A stretch of 64,000 nt of DNA from Mycetocola zhadangensis (GTDB taxonomy: Bacteria > Actinomycetota > Actinomycetes > Actinomycetales > Microbacteriaceae). Every line of letters starts with the position of its first letter. Within the stretch, counting starts at the first letter, position 1. The translations under genes were made by a program, and so were the position numbers. The notes beneath the pieces were generated by a model. It did no database searches, was not told where the DNA came from, and worked only from the letters and a program-made list of their open reading frames with translations. The stretch lies in the NCBI RefSeq assembly GCF_003668565.1, contig NZ_RCWJ01000002.1:806001-870000 (forward strand), in the 5' to 3' direction. Shown piece by piece: positions 33,240 to 39,449 of the stretch.

Positions 33240-33833
33240 ATGGCGGGGGTCGACAAGCCTCGCATCGAGGCTGCCGTCGTCGAGCTGCTCGCGGCGATCG
33301 GCGAGGATTCGTCTCGTGAAGGGCTCGCACGAACCCCGGCGCGGGTCGCCGAGGCATACGCCGAGTTCTTCGCCGGACTCGACGAGAACCCGCTCGAACA
33401 CCTGCGTGAATCGGTGCCGGTCGGTGATGCCGGAAACGGTGAAGTCGTGCTGTTGCGCGACATCGCCTTCCGGTCGATCTGCGAACACCACCTGCTGCCG
33501 TTCCTCGGCACCGCCCATGTGGCCTATCTGCCGAGCGACCGCGTCGTCGGACTCGGCAGGCTCCCGCTCGTCGTGAACACGCTCGCGTCCAGACCACAGC
33601 TGCAGGAGCGCCTGACCGAACAAATCGCTGATGCTCTCGAGCAGGGGCTCAGGGCTCGCGGTGTTCTGGTCGTGCTCGACGCGGTGCACGGGTGCGTCAC
33701 CGCACGTGGCCCCCGCCAGGCCGCCTCTTCGACCGTGACTGTCGCCAGTCGCGGAGAACTGACCGAACCGGCACGTCGCGCAGAGATCTTCGCGATGATC
33801 GGATCGAGCACCACGGACGACTCGCGTGCCTGA
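33240..33833 (+). CDS. folE: GTP cyclohydrolase I
   Basis: The 197-residue first enzyme of folate synthesis converts GTP to dihydroneopterin triphosphate. Zinc ligands Cys81, His84 and Cys152 are in SICEHHLLPF and HGCVTARG, and QLQERLTEQIADAL is conserved. The usual GLSKLPR stretch reads GLGRLPL here, a mild divergence. The ATG at 33240 lies 5 bp after the ftsH stop. It overlaps folP by 8 nt. Confidence 0.95.
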   Translation: MAGVDKPRIEAAVVELLAAIGEDSSREGLARTPARVAEAYAEFFAGLDENPLEHLRESVPVGDAGNGEVVLLRDIAFRSICEHHLLPFLGTAHVAYLPSDRVVGLGRLPLVVNTLASRPQLQERLTEQIADALEQGLRARGVLVVLDAVHGCVTARGPRQAASSTVTVASRGELTEPARRAEIFAMIGSSTTDDSRA

Positions 33834-34635
33834 AGCCGCTGGCGACCCCATGCTGGTGATGGGCATCCTCAACGTCACTCCGGACTCGTTCAGTGACGGT
33901 GGCCATTTTCTCGACCACAACTCAGCCATCTTCCACGGTCGGCGACTCGTCGCGGACGGAGCTGACATCGTCGACGTTGGTGGGGAGTCGACCCGCCCGG
34001 GAGCCGAACGGATCGGAGCGGCAGAGGAGTTGCGTCGCATCCTTCCGGTGGTCCGCGCTCTCTCAGCCGATGGCATCCGCGTCTCTGTTGACACCATGAA
34101 CGCTGAGACGGCTCGGGCAACCGTCGACGCCGGTGCCGAATTCATCAACGATGTGTCTGGTGGGCTCGCTGACCCCGGGATGATCGCGGTCGCGGCGGCG
34201 ACGGGTGCTCCGTACATCCTCAGCCACTGGCGTGGGCACAGCATCGACATGAACTCGCGAGCACACTACGACGACGTCGTGACCGACGTGCGCGCCGAGC
34301 TGGTCGACCGGCTCGCGGCGCTCGAGGCCGGGGGAGTGAATCGGGAAAACATCATTCTCGACCCGGGTCTCGGCTTCGCCAAGACGGCCGAGCAGAACTG
34401 GGAGATCCTCGCCCGGATCTCGGAACTGCAGTCGATCGGCCTCCCCGTGCTCGTCGGCGCCTCACGCAAGCGTTTCATCGGCGCGCTGCTTCCCGACGGT
34501 GCTCCGATGACGGACCGGGACCTGCCGACAGCCGTCGTCAGTGCGCTGCTTGCGGACTCGGGGCTGTGGGGAGTGCGCGTGCACAATGTGCCGGCCACAA
34601 CCATCGCTCTCGCCGCTCGACGTCGTTTGGTCTGA
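33826..34635 (+). CDS. folP: Dihydropteroate synthase
   Basis: The 269-residue TIM-barrel enzyme joins p-aminobenzoate to the pterin pyrophosphate and is the sulfonamide target. It shows ILNVTPDSFSDGG (about residues 14-26), ILDPGLGFAKT and GASRKRFIG. The GTG start at 33826 overlaps folE. In related genomes folB follows directly, but here a five-gene biotin cluster lies between them. Confidence 0.96.
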   Translation: MPEAAGDPMLVMGILNVTPDSFSDGGHFLDHNSAIFHGRRLVADGADIVDVGGESTRPGAERIGAAEELRRILPVVRALSADGIRVSVDTMNAETARATVDAGAEFINDVSGGLADPGMIAVAAATGAPYILSHWRGHSIDMNSRAHYDDVVTDVRAELVDRLAALEAGGVNRENIILDPGLGFAKTAEQNWEILARISELQSIGLPVLVGASRKRFIGALLPDGAPMTDRDLPTAVVSALLADSGLWGVRVHNVPATTIALAARRRLV

Positions 34636-34734: not shown

Positions 34735-35337
34735 GTGACTCCCGAGAACAACACGTCCCTTCGTGATCTGACGCGTATCGCGACCTTCACGGCCATCATC
34801 GCTGTACTCGGGCTTCCCGGCGCGATTCCGCTGTTCGGCAACGCCGTTCCCATCACCCTGCAAACACTCGGGGTGATGCTCGCCGGCGCGATCCTCGGCT
34901 GGTGGCGAGGTGCCGCCTCGGTGCTCGCGCTCCTGTTGCTTGTTGCTGCTGGCCTGCCGCTTCTGTCGGGCGGACGCGGCGGTATCGGCGTGTTCTTCGG
35001 CGCCTCGGTCGGATACCTCATCGGTTTCGCCTTCGGCGCAGCGGTGACCGGGCTGATCGTGCACGCCGGCGCAACGAAGCCGACGTGGTTACGCGTCGCT
35101 GTCGGGTCGTTCGTCGGGGGAGTGCTCACCGTCTACCTCTTCGGCATCCCGCTTCAGGCCCTCGTGACCGGAATTCCGCTCTCGGTCACCGCGATCGCCA
35201 GCACGGCGTTCCTGCCGGGGGACCTGGTCAAGGTCGCCCTCTCGACAGGTTTGGTGATGGCGGTGTGGCGCGCGTACCCCCGGGCGTTCAGTTTCTCGAG
35301 GAAACCCCGAGCAGCAGAGTTCGCACCGTTGCCGTGA
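34735..35337 (+). CDS. bioY: Biotin ECF transporter S component BioY
   Basis: The 200-residue protein has six hydrophobic segments and the BioY motif GRGGIGVFFGASVGYLIGF (about 82-100). It captures biotin and works with the ATPase and T component encoded at 37722-39010. The GTG start at 34735 is preceded by CACTCT with a 6-bp gap, possibly a weak leaderless promoter. The 99-bp gap before it has a small hairpin (GACTTT...AAAGTC). No TGAAC-N3-GTTAC BioQ-type operator was found. Confidence 0.92.
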   Translation: MTPENNTSLRDLTRIATFTAIIAVLGLPGAIPLFGNAVPITLQTLGVMLAGAILGWWRGAASVLALLLLVAAGLPLLSGGRGGIGVFFGASVGYLIGFAFGAAVTGLIVHAGATKPTWLRVAVGSFVGGVLTVYLFGIPLQALVTGIPLSVTAIASTAFLPGDLVKVALSTGLVMAVWRAYPRAFSFSRKPRAAEFAPLP

Positions 35338-36581
35338 ACTCCGACGCGGTCGCGCTCGTCGTCGGGAATGCCCGGCTGACCTACGGCGACCTTCGCGAAC
35401 GAGTTGCATCCTGGCCGGGCAACATCGTCGACGGCCAGCTCGTCCCGCTGCGGTCGGTTGATCCGATCGAACTCGTGGTCGCAGCGCTTGCCGTTCGAGA
35501 GCGGGGCGGAGTGCCTGCCATTGGCGACATCCGCTGGAGCGAGGGGCACTGGGCCGAGCTGGCCCGGTCGGTCAACGACGCCGAGCTCCCCCCAGGCGCC
35601 GCGTGGGCGACGTTCAGTTCGGGCAGCACAGGGTCACCGCGCGTCATTGTGCGCGACGCTCGCTCGTGGTCGACATCGTTCCCAGCACTCACCCGCCTGA
35701 TGGCCCTCACCCCAAACGACGTCGTGCTCCTGCCGTCTCCCCTCGTGTCGTCCCTGTCGATGTTCTCGATCGCACACGTGCTCGACGCTGGTGCGACGGT
35801 GATGCTTCCCGCCAACTCAGCGGTGTCCGCCGCCGAGTGCGAACCAGCCACCGCCCTGCACGGAACCCCGGGCGCACTGGGAAGCATCCTCGACCGCATC
35901 GACGCCGGCGCGCGCACGCACCTCCGACTGGCGCTGATCGGCGGAGCGCACCTCGACGCGACCCTGCGCTCGAGGGCAGAGAAGGCTGGCATTCGCGTGG
36001 TCAGCTACTACGGCGCAGCCGAGTTGTCGTTTGTGGCCGTCGACGAAGCCGGTCACGGTCTGCGCGCATTCGACGGAGTCGAGCTGCGGGTTGTCGATGG
36101 TGAACTCTGGAGTCGGTCGCCATACGCGGCGCTTGGCTATCTCCCTGGCGAAACCGGGTCGTTCCGCACCGACGCGAACGGGTGGTCCTCGGTCGGTGAC
36201 TCAGCGACCCTCAGCGTCGACGGCATCCTCACCCTCCAGGGCCGACGCGACGGAGCGATCCTGACAGCAGCGGCCACCGTTGTTCCCGAAGACGTCGAGG
36301 CCGTGTTGCGTACACTCGATGGAGTGAAGAATTCCGTCGTCTTCGGCGCACCCCACCCCCGGCTCGGTTCGCTGGTCTGTGCCGTGATTGAGCCGGAAGA
36401 TGCCAGCACCCCGCCGACGTCGGCCGCACTGCGCGCTGCCTGCCGCGACCGCCTGGGTGTCGCCCAGATCCCTCGGCGCTGGTACCTCGCACCCAAACTT
36501 CCGCTGACGTCGAGCGGCAAACCTGCACGCGCGGTTATCGCGCGCGACGCACTCGCCGAGCGGATGCTCCGACTTGCGTAA
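35334..36581 (+). CDS. AMP-forming acyl-CoA synthetase-like enzyme (YhfT-like by context)
   Basis: This 415-residue ANL-superfamily enzyme has the phosphate loop FSSGSTGSPRV (about 94-104), a YYGAAELS motif and the C-terminal catalytic lysine segment TSSGKPAR near residue 396. It activates a carboxylic acid as an acyl-adenylate/CoA ester, substrate unknown. It is shorter than typical fatty-acyl-CoA ligases. Its position between bioY and a thiolase recalls the biotin-regulated yhfU-yhfT-yhfS set of Bacillus subtilis. The GTG overlaps the bioY stop by 4 nt. Confidence 0.8.
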   Translation: MNSDAVALVVGNARLTYGDLRERVASWPGNIVDGQLVPLRSVDPIELVVAALAVRERGGVPAIGDIRWSEGHWAELARSVNDAELPPGAAWATFSSGSTGSPRVIVRDARSWSTSFPALTRLMALTPNDVVLLPSPLVSSLSMFSIAHVLDAGATVMLPANSAVSAAECEPATALHGTPGALGSILDRIDAGARTHLRLALIGGAHLDATLRSRAEKAGIRVVSYYGAAELSFVAVDEAGHGLRAFDGVELRVVDGELWSRSPYAALGYLPGETGSFRTDANGWSSVGDSATLSVDGILTLQGRRDGAILTAAATVVPEDVEAVLRTLDGVKNSVVFGAPHPRLGSLVCAVIEPEDASTPPTSAALRAACRDRLGVAQIPRRWYLAPKLPLTSSGKPARAVIARDALAERMLRLA

Positions 36582-37725
36582 CAGCGTCGCCACCGTCATC
36601 GCCGCGCGGCGAACACCGATAGCGACGGTCGGCCAGCGTCTGGCGGCGTTCTCCGTCGACTCCCTGGCGGCGTCGAGCCTCTGCGCGACGCTGACCGACG
36701 CGCAGCTGGCGCTCGGCAACCAGCCAGCAATCGGCGACGTGGTCCTGGGCAACTGCATGGGCCCCGGCGGCAACACCGCCAGGGTTGCATCCCTCGCCGC
36801 AGGGATAGACGTGACGGTTCCCGGAATGACGGTGGACCGCCAGTGCGGCTCGGGCCTGGCAGCAGTGCTGGTTGCGGCCGAGCAGATTGCGGCTGGCAGT
36901 CGATCAATGCGGCTCGCCGGAGGTGCTGAGAGCGCGTCGACCGCGCCGACCCGTATTGCGAAGAACACGGCATACGCTCGTGCCGCGTTCGCGCCAGAGG
37001 GGTTCCCCGACCCGGATATGGGGCCTGCGGCCGAAGCCCTCGCGGGCACGCGGAGGATCTCACGTGACCAGCAGGATGCCTACGCCCTCCGCAGTCACGA
37101 TCGGGCGGTCGACGCTCGGAACTCCGGCCGGTTCATCAACGAACTCGTGACGATCGGCGATGTCACCACCGATGACGGCCCACGCCCGATGAGCAGGGCG
37201 ATGCTCGCGCGGTTTGCGCCGGTCTTTGCGACAGACACCAGCGGAACGGTCACCGCAGGCAACTCGTGCCGCGTCAGCGACGGTGCGGCAACCGTCGCAC
37301 TCGTTCCGGATGCCGACCGCGGAAGCGCGCCGGGGCTCGCGCTGATCGGCAGTGCCACCGTCGGCTGTGACCCGGCGACACCTGGGCTCGGTCCCGCGTT
37401 CGCCATTGAGTCCCTGCTCGAACAAACCGGAGTCCGCCTCGACGATATCGAGGCTGTCGAGATCGTTGAGGCCTTCGCCGCGCAGGCACTCGCTGTGCTC
37501 TGGGAGATCGGCCTAGCGTCGGCGAACACCGTGGATGACCGGGTGTGCGCGGACGGCGGAGCACTCGCCCTCGGGCACCCCTGGGGTGCAAGCGGCGCGG
37601 TCAGCGTGGTGCGGCTCTTCTCGCGCCTGGTGCGTTCAGGTCGTCCCGCAGGCACCCTCGGGCTGGCGACAGCAGCGATCGGCGGCGGCATGGGCGTCGC
37701 AGCACTCTTTCGGGTGGTGCGGTGA
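36574..37725 (+). CDS. Thiolase-like protein lacking the second catalytic Cys (YhfS-like by context)
   Basis: The 383-residue thiolase-fold protein keeps the acylated Cys91 in DRQCGSG and the GHPWGASG histidine motif. The usual NEAFA reads VEAFA, and the C-terminal CxGGGxG reads AIGGGMG, so the general-base Cys is Ala. A normal reversible thiolase reaction is therefore doubtful. A TTG start at 36574 overlapping the previous gene by 8 nt is the best available start. It lies between the acyl-CoA synthetase and bioM, which suggests a role in biotin-linked acyl metabolism. Confidence 0.8.
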   Translation: MRNSVATVIAARRTPIATVGQRLAAFSVDSLAASSLCATLTDAQLALGNQPAIGDVVLGNCMGPGGNTARVASLAAGIDVTVPGMTVDRQCGSGLAAVLVAAEQIAAGSRSMRLAGGAESASTAPTRIAKNTAYARAAFAPEGFPDPDMGPAAEALAGTRRISRDQQDAYALRSHDRAVDARNSGRFINELVTIGDVTTDDGPRPMSRAMLARFAPVFATDTSGTVTAGNSCRVSDGAATVALVPDADRGSAPGLALIGSATVGCDPATPGLGPAFAIESLLEQTGVRLDDIEAVEIVEAFAAQALAVLWEIGLASANTVDDRVCADGGALALGHPWGASGAVSVVRLFSRLVRSGRPAGTLGLATAAIGGGMGVAALFRVVR

Positions 37726-38408
37726 GTACCCGCGAAATCGTGCTGAACGGGGTGTCGGTCGACTACGGCAACCGACTCGCGCTTGAGAACGTCAGCACGC
37801 GGCTCGACGCCCACCGCATCGCCGTGATCGGGGCAAACGGGTCGGGCAAATCCACCTTCGCCCGGCTGCTCAACGGGCTCGAAGCACCGACGTCAGGCAG
37901 CCTCAGTGTGCACGGCCTCGACCCCGTTCGGCAGGGCAAGCAACTCCGTCGCCACGTCGGTTTCGTCTTCACCAACCCGGACGCGCAGATCGTCATGCCG
38001 ACGGTCGCTGAGGACGTGGCCTTCTCGCTGAGGGGGCGTGGACTGTCCAAGTCCGAAATCGCGGGCCGCGTGGCATCCGTTCTCGCCCAAAACGGGTTGG
38101 GCGACCACGCCGATGCGCCTGCCCACACCCTCTCCGGCGGGCAAAAACAACTTCTGGCCCTCTGCTCGGTGCTTGTGGGCGAACCTGACCTTCTCGTCGC
38201 CGACGAGCCGACGACACTGCTCGACGCGGCAAACACCCGCCGGATCGCCGACCTGTTCTCGGCCCTCGAGCAACAGATTGTTCTCGTCACCCACAACCTC
38301 CGGCTCGCCGAGCGATGCGATATCGCTCTGCGGTTCGACGGCGGAAGGCTCGTTGAGCAGGGCGACCCGGTTGATGTGGTCGGTCGATACGAACGCGAGT
38401 TCGCCTGA
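37722..38408 (+). CDS. bioM: ECF transporter ATPase (BioM-type)
   Basis: The 228-residue ABC ATPase has Walker A GANGSGKST (37-45), the signature LSGGQKQLLALCSVL, Walker B LLVADEPTTLLD and a switch His in VTHN. It drives ATP-dependent biotin import with BioN and BioY. The GTG overlaps the thiolase stop, and its own stop overlaps the bioN ATG (TGATG). Assignment as BioM rather than a general EcfA rests on linkage with bioY and bioN. Confidence 0.9.
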   Translation: MSTREIVLNGVSVDYGNRLALENVSTRLDAHRIAVIGANGSGKSTFARLLNGLEAPTSGSLSVHGLDPVRQGKQLRRHVGFVFTNPDAQIVMPTVAEDVAFSLRGRGLSKSEIAGRVASVLAQNGLGDHADAPAHTLSGGQKQLLALCSVLVGEPDLLVADEPTTLLDAANTRRIADLFSALEQQIVLVTHNLRLAERCDIALRFDGGRLVEQGDPVDVVGRYEREFA

Positions 38409-39010
38409 TGCAGCCTCTCGGTCTCTACCGGCCGGGGTCGAGCGTTCTGCACCGGGCGGGCGCAGGCGTCAAACTGATCAGCCTGTTTGTGCTGGCGCTT
38501 GCGGCATCGGTGCCGCCGCCATCGATCTGGCTGCTCGGTGGGCTGTCGGTTCTCGTTGTCACGCTGTACCTGCTGGCCGGGCTTGGCTTTCGCGAACTCG
38601 CGCGGCAAATCCTGATGATTCGGTGGCTGATACTCCTGGTCACGGTCACCGGGCTGCTCTTCCTGCCGCTCGATGTCGCCCTGGCCAACGTCACCCGGAT
38701 GACGCTGGTGATCGTGCTCGCCGGGCTGGTCACGCTCACCACACGCACGTCTGCTCTTCTCGATGCTTTCGAGGTCGCGCTGTCACCGTTGCGGTTCGCC
38801 GGAATCAACCCGCAACGGATCAGCCTCGTTCTTGCCCTGTCCATCCGCACCGTTCCGGTGATCGCCGGGTTCGCACAGCAGTTGCGCGACGCCCAGCGGT
38901 CCCGGGGCGGGCGGGTCAGTATCCGGGCGTTCGTGGTTCCGCTGCTCGTTCTCTCGCTGCGGCACTCCGACGACCTGGCCGACGCCCTCATCGCCAGGGG
39001 CGCCGACTGA
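38408..39010 (+). CDS. bioN: ECF transporter T component (BioN/CbiQ family)
   Basis: The 200-residue protein has about five membrane helices and two Ala-Arg-Gly type coupling motifs (AQRSRGGR near residue 160 and LIARGAD at the C-terminus) that contact the ATPase. It completes the biotin transporter with BioY and BioM. Translation is coupled to bioM by a 1-nt TGATG overlap. Confidence 0.9.
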   Translation: MQPLGLYRPGSSVLHRAGAGVKLISLFVLALAASVPPPSIWLLGGLSVLVVTLYLLAGLGFRELARQILMIRWLILLVTVTGLLFLPLDVALANVTRMTLVIVLAGLVTLTTRTSALLDAFEVALSPLRFAGINPQRISLVLALSIRTVPVIAGFAQQLRDAQRSRGGRVSIRAFVVPLLVLSLRHSDDLADALIARGAD

Positions 39011-39050: not shown

Positions 39051-39449
39051 GTGACCCTCGGCGACTCTCTCACCCTCACCGGCCTGCGCGTGCGCGCTCA
39101 CCACGGTGTTTACGACTTCGAACGCGAGAACGGCCAGGACTTCGTGATCGACCTGACGGTCGGCATCGACCTCCGCAGAGCCGCCGAAAGCGATGACGTG
39201 ACGACGACCATCCACTACGGCGAACTGGCCGAACGTGTCGCCGCTGCCGTTGCGTCCGACCCGGTCGACCTGATTGAGACCGTCGCCGAACGCATCGCCG
39301 CCCTGGTGCTGTCGTACCCGGCCGCTCAGGACGTGCGGGTGACCGTGCACAAACCAGACGCGCCCATCCCTGTCCCGTTCGGCGATGTTGCCGTCACCAT
39401 CGTGAGGACAGCCGCCGACCGGAAGGCCCGGAGCGAGGCCGCATCATGA
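39051..39449 (+). CDS. folB: Dihydroneopterin aldolase
   Basis: This 132-residue enzyme cleaves dihydroneopterin to hydroxymethyl-dihydropterin. It has VRAHHGVYDFERENGQ with the conserved Glu, a YGELAERV helix and the terminal VHKPDAPIP motif. TAGAGT (39039-39044) sits 6 bp before the GTG start, so folB appears to have its own leaderless promoter after the biotin cluster. The stop overlaps folK by 4 nt. Confidence 0.94.
   Translation: MTLGDSLTLTGLRVRAHHGVYDFERENGQDFVIDLTVGIDLRRAAESDDVTTTIHYGELAERVAAAVASDPVDLIETVAERIAALVLSYPAAQDVRVTVHKPDAPIPVPFGDVAVTIVRTAADRKARSEAAS

Follow-up and report, generated by a model that had tools for sequence, protein, structure and literature searches.

The closest described relatives of the genes treated here are yhfU(bioY)-yhfT-yhfS of Bacillus and the yhfS-yhfT operon of Staphylococcus aureus. 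Their three gene families, a bioY biotin transporter component, an AMP-forming acyl ligase of the ANL family and a thiolase-like protein, are the same as those of a locus in a 64,000-nucleotide stretch of the Mycetocola zhadangensis genome (3.32 Mb in 5 contigs), the whole of which we call the window. BirA control of yhfS-yhfT has been demonstrated in S. aureus (PMC6391492; papers are cited here for the accessible parts of their text), and both genes are known BirA targets whose function is given in the accessible texts as 'putative' only, apart from a role in surfactin reported for YhfT (PMC10988940). The window differs from the yhfU-yhfT-yhfS arrangement in that its ligase-thiolase pair lies inside bioYMN, itself inside a folate operon, and in having no BirA-box-like site. 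It differs from the Bacillus pair in its shorter ligase and in the additional replacement of Asn316, a catalytic position of thiolases.

Further systems offer points of comparison. BioZ resembles 3-ketoacyl-acyl carrier protein (ACP) synthase III (KAS III) and joins glutaryl-coenzyme A (CoA) to malonyl-ACP, giving a C7 keto acid that is then handled by type II fatty acid synthesis (FAS II; PMC8024396). It provides a precedent for a condensing enzyme that performs one two-carbon (C2) extension in biotin metabolism. Unlike BioZ, the window enzyme is of the thiolase type rather than KAS III, is paired with a ligase and a biotin importer, and occurs in genomes without bioB. Corynebacterium glutamicum, a biotin auxotroph, has the same energy-coupling factor (ECF) biotin importer genes; its operon is described in the accessible text as bioYMN without ligase or thiolase, unlike the window (PMC3398298). 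The canonical acetyl-CoA acyltransferases (thiolase II, FadA, PhaA) belong to the same sequence family as the thiolase-like protein and share its Cys89 and His348, whereas Cys378 (C378) has been lost in the 59-ORF group described below (ORF, open reading frame). Among the literature matches listed, with subscription papers mostly outside the scope, no title or abstract opening described the cassette, and the accessible part of PMC12642757 makes no mention of yhf, vra or thiolase.

From the comparisons that follow we consider it rather probable that the ligase and the thiolase-like protein belong to a C2 elongation route. More tentatively, and somewhat short of an even chance, they would be the first two steps of such a route linked to biotin, with bisnorbiotin as the best-fitting substrate. 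In the window the genes are arranged on the + strand as folE-folP-[bioY-ANL ligase-thiolase-like-bioM-bioN]-folB-folK, as seen from ORFs and searches with Pfam and NCBIfam:

33826 to 34635, + strand: folP, upstream flank (TIGR01496, 299 bits)
34735 to 35337, + strand: bioY, S component of the ECF biotin transporter (PF02632, 113.7 bits)
35334 to 36581, + strand: ANL (AMP-forming) acyl ligase, YhfT-like, 415 residues (PF00501 and PF13193; best NCBIfam model NF005797, 140 bits, cut-off 518)
36574 to 37725, + strand: thiolase-like condensing enzyme (putative), YhfS-like, TTG start (PF00108 and PF02803; best NCBIfam model NF005212, 298 bits, cut-off 498)
37722 to 38408, + strand: bioM, ECF ATPase (PF00005; best NCBIfam model TIGR04520, 182 bits, under its cut-off of 315)
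38408 to 39010, + strand: bioN, ECF T component (PF02361, 57.8 bits)
39051 to 39449, + strand: folB, downstream flank (TIGR00525, 119 bits)

The interleaving of the five genes between folP and folB, proposed in the initial annotation, was borne out by the ORFs, the family searches and the overlaps. All five genes of the bio region overlap: GTGA is shared at the bioY/ligase and thiolase/bioM junctions and TGATG at bioM/bioN, and the ligase and thiolase-like genes overlap by 8 bases. The GTG start of the ligase at 35334, which overlaps the bioY stop, was picked by eye. The S, A and T components of a type I ECF biotin transporter, BioYMN, are encoded together, and bioY is the single PF02632 match in a profile search of the genome and its only recognised biotin importer.

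The thiolase-like protein departs from canonical thiolases at catalytic positions. In the Zoogloea thiolase, Cys378 is the base that takes a proton from the substrate, and Asn316 together with His348 forms the oxyanion hole (PMC3406046); Cys378 is also given as a catalytic residue in thiolase by PMC4595758. Alignments placed the corresponding codons of the window gene as follows:

36844 to 36846, + strand: nucleophilic Cys codon (Cys89 of the Zoogloea thiolase), kept
37465 to 37467, + strand: Val codon at the Asn316 position
37546 to 37548, + strand: Cys codon ten residues before His348, a candidate substitute residue in actinobacterial copies
37576 to 37578, + strand: catalytic His codon (His348), kept
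37675 to 37677, + strand: Ala codon at the position of the general base Cys378, which is lost

With Ala at 378, the window protein lacks the combination of Cys89, His348 and Cys378 that marks a canonical thiolase (EC 2.3.1.9/16). We aligned the 16 members of this group from the window's family with 14 paralogues from the same family. The members keep the Cys89 and His348 equivalents; C378 is replaced in them by A or S and Asn316 by V or T, whereas all 14 paralogues, to which the thiolase-like protein is 34-40% identical, retain both C378 and Asn316. A wider set of 140 distinct thiolase ORFs was recruited by similarity, and its 59 C378-less ORFs are not independent, 16 coming from the window's family and 24 from that of genome G453. 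In this set Cys89 and His348 were present throughout (140 of 140) and C378 was replaced in the 59 (37 G, 12 S and 10 A). Every one of the 81 C378-bearing ORFs has N at the Asn316 position; among the 59 that position is N in 38, V in 15 and T in 6. Bacillota and Azospirillum copies have Asn there, most actinobacterial copies V or T. Of the 59 C378-less ORFs, 58 have an ANL ligase no more than 1.5 kb away on their own strand, compared with 4 of the 81 C378-bearing ones, and in the lone exception (L222) a ligase stands further down the same cluster, 3' of bioN (locus L264). The altered residues make it highly probable that these proteins are not canonical thiolases, and the window protein probably has an activity other than that of a thiolase.

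The position of the ligase varies in two genomes. The YhfT-like ligase gene 3' of bioN in G414 (L264:3933-5330) is the only ligase seen in its cluster, while G188 has a YhfT-like ligase 3' of bioN (L265:4535-6103) and a further ligase between bioY and the thiolase.

The window pair appears to belong to one group that spans several phyla. Its best NCBIfam models, NF005212/PRK06690 and NF005797/PRK07638, are those that we take to be YhfS and YhfT, partly from the gene order of a Bacillus locus (L269: bioY, ligase, thiolase, then a phosphatase-like ORF), although the window proteins do not reach the curated cut-offs. Against NF005212 (cut-off 498), the thiolase-like copies reach 621 bits in Bacillus halotolerans and 618 bits in Bacillus sp. 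SKDU12. Both have G at 378, a residue also found there in the Alkalibacillus, Paenibacillus woosongensis and Alicyclobacillus copies. Records of Azospirillum (two species), Shinella, Nonomuraea and Streptantibioticus combine bioY, bioM, the ligase and a C378-less thiolase, and a Rhizobium pair occurs without bioY. In a tree of 60 proteins, 27 C378-less, pair-associated ones fell on one side of a branch with support of 98/91. The Bacillus, Paenibacillus, Azospirillum, Shinella and actinobacterial copies share that side, apart from the canonical thiolases; the tree is unrooted, its deeper grouping is weak, as is the attachment of Bacillus YhfS within its side (53/86), and the Listeria row is long. 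The ligases have in common the motif (Y/F)YG(A/T)(A/S/T)ELSF, which is found in most copies compared, the window's included, and a GK near the C-terminus is kept; variants of the motif occur in the L017, Rhizobium, Shinella, Streptantibioticus, Alicyclobacillus and Listeria copies. The Bacillus pair thus resembles the window's in its C378-less thiolase, its paired ligase and its ligase motif. With ligase and thiolase-like genes adjacent and linked to bioY, the window has the arrangement of the wider YhfS-YhfT pair. The parallel with yhfT-yhfS drawn in the initial annotation was upheld by the best models (under their cut-offs), the supported tree side and the shared motif.

The link of the pair to biotin, which the same annotation had proposed, was examined in 60 contexts. 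The link is strong: 43 of them have bioY on the same strand and no more than 8 kb away, so the pair does not occur mostly without biotin genes. Of the remaining 17, seven carry a BirA-box-like site, three (L305, L337 and L343) have ECF genes and L266 has a bioM-like gene. BioY was present somewhere in the genome of all 15 carriers tested. A BirA-box-like site was defined as one within two mismatches of TTGTTAACC-N12-18-GGTTAACAA. Of 33 Bacillota carrier loci (577 kb), 19 contain one such site each; setting aside L271 and L274, which come from genomes found by a BirA-box search and are not independent, leaves 17 of 31. None was present in 2.88 Mb of block-shuffled sequence, and 73 other Bacillota loci (302 kb, short carrier loci included) gave two hits, both copies of carrier sites (L283 and L288). 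Seventeen of the sites lie 39-167 bases 5' of the first aligned cassette codon, and those of L271 and L274 overlap the extended 5' end of bioY. The sites precede 15 of the 22 further carrier loci of the Paenibacillus family, seven of which are without bioY (L338, L341, L342, L347, L348, L352 and L353). The two Bacillus loci (L269 and L270) gave no site within two mismatches, and the scan therefore misses sites.

Recurrence within the window's own family, Microbacteriaceae, indicates that the arrangement of pair and transporter is not due to chance. A member of the thiolase family was found in 16 of 120 sampled genomes (16 at E <= 3.8e-61, the next match being at 1.1e-56). The ligase adjoins the thiolase in all 16, and both bioY and bioM lie within 1.5 kb in 14, the two exceptions coming from one genus. 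The pair is far rarer than the transporter, BioY being present in 109 of the 120 genomes. Pair and transporter stand between folP and folB in the window and in G002, of the same genus. A third genome of that genus (G086) has folP-bioY-folB with bioY alone, and G017, from another genus, has folP-bioY-bioM-bioN-folB without the pair (L359:7601-12060), the pair lying elsewhere in its genome. On the evidence of these four genomes, the folate position looks like a property of the transporter and not of the pair, which looks like an optional insert. In thirty BioY loci from this family, selected for their high scores, neither folate neighbours nor the pair occurred within 1.5 kb. The genome of G017 has a second bioYMN besides the one in its folate operon.

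The enzymes that might act after the pair are suggested by fuller cassettes outside the window's family. In the Paenibacillus family, to which G453 and G127 (Paenibacillus woosongensis) belong, the thiolase group occurs in 24 of 197 genomes (E <= 1e-130), with a ligase in all 24 contexts (L335-L356, L305 and L272). A single cluster holds the ligase, the thiolase, two hot-dog dehydratase-like (HadA/B-like) genes, FabG and FabK in 16 of the 24:

L305, L337, L340-L348, L350, L352, L353, L355 and L356: loci with the full enzyme set

These clusters hold the full set of steps of a FAS II module (HadAB, FabG, FabK); unlike such a module, they have a thiolase-like condensing enzyme (putative) and are linked to the biotin ECF transporter and to BirA-box-like sites. 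Seven of the 16 also contain bioY, bioM and bioN (L340, L344, L345, L346, L350, L355 and L356). The order in L356 is bioY, ligase, thiolase-like, HadA-like, HadB-like, FabG, ECF genes, CHY zinc finger and FabK, with scores of 436 bits for the ligase (NF005797), 425 bits for the thiolase-like protein (NF005212) and 285 bits for FabK (TIGR03151) in searches with two libraries. FabK is the sole gene missing from the set in L338. Among the remaining contexts, L272, L335, L336, L339 and L349 have bioY, ECF genes, an adenine-deaminase-like gene, ligase, thiolase and FabG, and L351 and L354 have bioY, ECF genes, ligase and thiolase, with FabG in L351. Partial sets occur in Alkalibacillus (MaoC), Alicyclobacillus (FabK) and Listeria grayi (FabG, a FabK-like gene and a weak MaoC match); G605 has a weak FabA-like match and G642 a weak MaoC match, both under cut-off.

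Several other genes were observed in or beside these clusters. An adenine-deaminase-like amidohydrolase gene lies between the ECF T gene and the ligase (L272:3874-5595, and in L335, L336, L339 and L349); an amide group or a ring in the imported compound is a possible target of its product. A putative vitamin transporter gene, Vut_1 (PF02592, tested in L305), lies upstream of the cassette at L305:4949-5662 and in L337, L340 and L343, and these four loci have no BirA-box-like site. A CHY zinc-finger gene stands 3' of bioN in 6 of the 16 loci of the window's family and 3' of the thiolase in one (L259), and between EcfT and FabK in L344, L350 and L356 of the Paenibacillus family, that is, in two phyla. 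It was considered as a sixth partner of the set and no role could be assigned to it:

L252:10343-10672, and also in L250, L251, L253, L255, L259, L260, L344, L350 and L356: CHY zinc-finger gene (PF05495)

Most of the carriers tested have no bioB over cut-off. In profile searches the window's genome had no bioB and no bioD match and no convincing bioF, the bioF model reaching E 8.8e-4 only, so that the bioB, bioD and bioF genes of the de novo (pimelate) pathway are not found together there. Across 32 carriers, which include Listeria grayi (thiolase with C378), bioB was over cut-off in 11 and absent from 21 (the window's genome and 20 of the 31 others). BioD was over cut-off in 4 of the 32; that search is insensitive, six bioB carriers besides G070 having given no bioD over cut-off or none at all, and bioB is the better guide. 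Among the 120 genomes of the window's family, bioB was over cut-off in two (G070 and G078), and the pair is present in G070 only. Six of the 16 carriers in that family (G028, G050, G055, G063, G079 and G103) had bioF-like matches of 353-386 bits against a cut-off of 426, which may be BioF or a related enzyme, either being possible. G453, with its complete enzyme cassette, had no bioB or bioD match. Pimeloyl salvage, which had been suggested for the pair, finds no support in these results, and pimelate salvage was dropped for the window's genome after the bioB, bioD and bioF searches.

The presence together of a ligase, a condensing-type enzyme, a ketoreductase, a dehydratase and an enoyl reductase leads us to propose one round of C2 elongation. 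The ANL ligase would activate an acid to an acyl thioester of CoA or ACP. The conserved Cys of the thiolase-like enzyme would take up the acyl group, which would then be condensed with a two-carbon unit. With no base to deprotonate acetyl-CoA, the enzyme would most likely use malonyl-CoA or malonyl-ACP as extender, decarboxylatively as in ketoacyl synthases, an argument made by chemical analogy. In the Paenibacillus family the 3-keto product would be reduced, dehydrated and reduced again by the FabG, HadA/B-like and FabK proteins of the same cluster. The window would represent a reduced form of the route, encoding activation and condensation only, and its organism is assumed to carry out the later steps with housekeeping enzymes. 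The Bacillus subtilis YhfT is reported to form an acyl-adenylate and no CoA thioester (review PMC10988940), which would fit transfer to ACP.

The substrate is the most tentative part of this proposal. Bisnorbiotin is biotin after one round of beta-oxidation on its side chain, and it would fit import through BioY, bacteria without bioB and a C2 step. In human 24-h urine it accounts for 13-23% of total biotin (PMC9106636). We put the chance of a biotin catabolite being the substrate not far below even. With slightly less assurance, we suggest that the whole amounts to vitamin repair, in which bisnorbiotin would be imported via BioY, activated, lengthened by C2 through the thiolase-derived enzyme and FAS-type enzymes, and rebuilt to biotin.

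Several observations weigh against C2 elongation of a biotin catabolite. Every step of the route is a prediction from sequence, and in the window no ketoreductase, dehydratase or enoyl reductase gene stands beside the pair, nor does a BirA-box-like site occur at up to 4 mismatches. The FabK, HadA and HadB matches are the best NCBIfam models yet stay under curated cut-offs. The 11 carriers with bioB have no obvious need for salvage, and in G453, the one full-cassette genome covered by the bioB search, bioY lies elsewhere in the genome. Six of the 60 contexts (L069, L258, L259, L267, L273 and L309) are without an adjacent biotin link. The argument for condensation is weakened by the replacement of Asn316 with V or T in most actinobacterial copies, and a Cys ten residues before His348, found in 16 of 27 non-Bacillota copies (the window's included) and in none of 32 from Bacillota, could stand in for C378 as a shifted catalytic Cys. 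This position is Asn in all 81 C378-bearing thiolases. The Bacillota copies exclude it as a group-wide replacement, although it may matter for the window. Loss of C378 is also not essential to the set, as Listeria grayi retains the residue in a cluster of bioY, ligase, thiolase, FabG and a FabK-like gene. That set (L274:4691-9868) has a divergent ligase and may be an independent or earlier version of the same idea.

The alternative that fares best, although we consider it unlikely, is elongation acting on fatty acids, in which exogenous acids would be activated and extended under biotin shortage, relieving the lipid supply as acetyl-CoA carboxylase fails. BirA-box-like sites and FAS-type neighbours are compatible with this, and YhfT is counted among the fatty acyl ligases for surfactin, forming acyl-AMP and no CoA thioester (PMC10988940). 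A malonyl extender, however, would need the failing biotin enzyme itself, an acetyl-CoA extender is unlikely without C378, and in 43 of 60 contexts the genes are tied to BioY by location and not by co-regulation alone.

Somewhat less likely is breakdown or detoxification of a biotin-like acid, whether an antivitamin or a surplus analogue, by beta-oxidation with the thiolase as last step. A beta-oxidation spiral has an ANL ligase at one end and a thiolase fold at the other, the actinobacterial copies have a possible replacement Cys, and an acyl-CoA dehydrogenase-family gene, whose best NCBIfam model is acryloyl-CoA reductase, lies 3.4 kb 3' of the L272 thiolase. Against this stand the loss of C378, the proton-transfer Cys of thiolases, and the reductive nature of FabK and FabG. 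Outside L272 no gene for an acyl-CoA dehydrogenase turned up (neighbours were family-searched in some loci only), and induction under biotin shortage would be odd for the degradation of biotin. The initial annotation had offered the cleaning up of a biotin-like acyl compound; that suggestion survives, but in other lineages the FabG, HadA/B-like or MaoC, and FabK neighbours point away from breakdown and towards chain extension.

A comparably improbable reading makes the thiolase-like protein an acyltransferase or thioesterase that moves or releases the ligase's acyl group and forms no C-C bond. In its favour, Cys89 and His348 are the only two of the four catalytic positions conserved across all 59 members, and 21 have lost both Asn316 and C378; Asn316 is, however, kept in Bacillota copies and in most of those on alphaproteobacterial records, and the neighbouring FabG, dehydratase and FabK genes imply a 3-keto intermediate. 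Formation of pimelate or a pimeloyl thioester for de novo biotin synthesis (e.g. from glutarate and C2) is the least probable of all, since despite the precedent of BioZ acting on glutaryl-CoA (PMC8024396) and bioB in 11 of 32 carriers, the other 21, the window's genome among them, are without bioB over cut-off, G453 combines the full enzyme cassette with no bioB or bioD match, and the idea is ruled out for the bioB-less genomes if the bioB searches are right.

For C2 elongation linked to biotin uptake, the fuller cassettes give yhfT and yhfS a concrete and testable role in one round of such elongation. They also carry a warning for annotation, as an 'acetyl-CoA acyltransferase' encoded beside an acyl-CoA synthetase may not be a thiolase. 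If vitamin repair is the true function, its first two steps would be those encoded by the long-unassigned yhfT and yhfS genes in Bacillus and Staphylococcus. If the substrate is bisnorbiotin, the route would be a new way to obtain the vitamin, biotin catabolites would be usable by organisms without bioB, and this would change which bacteria count as needing intact biotin.

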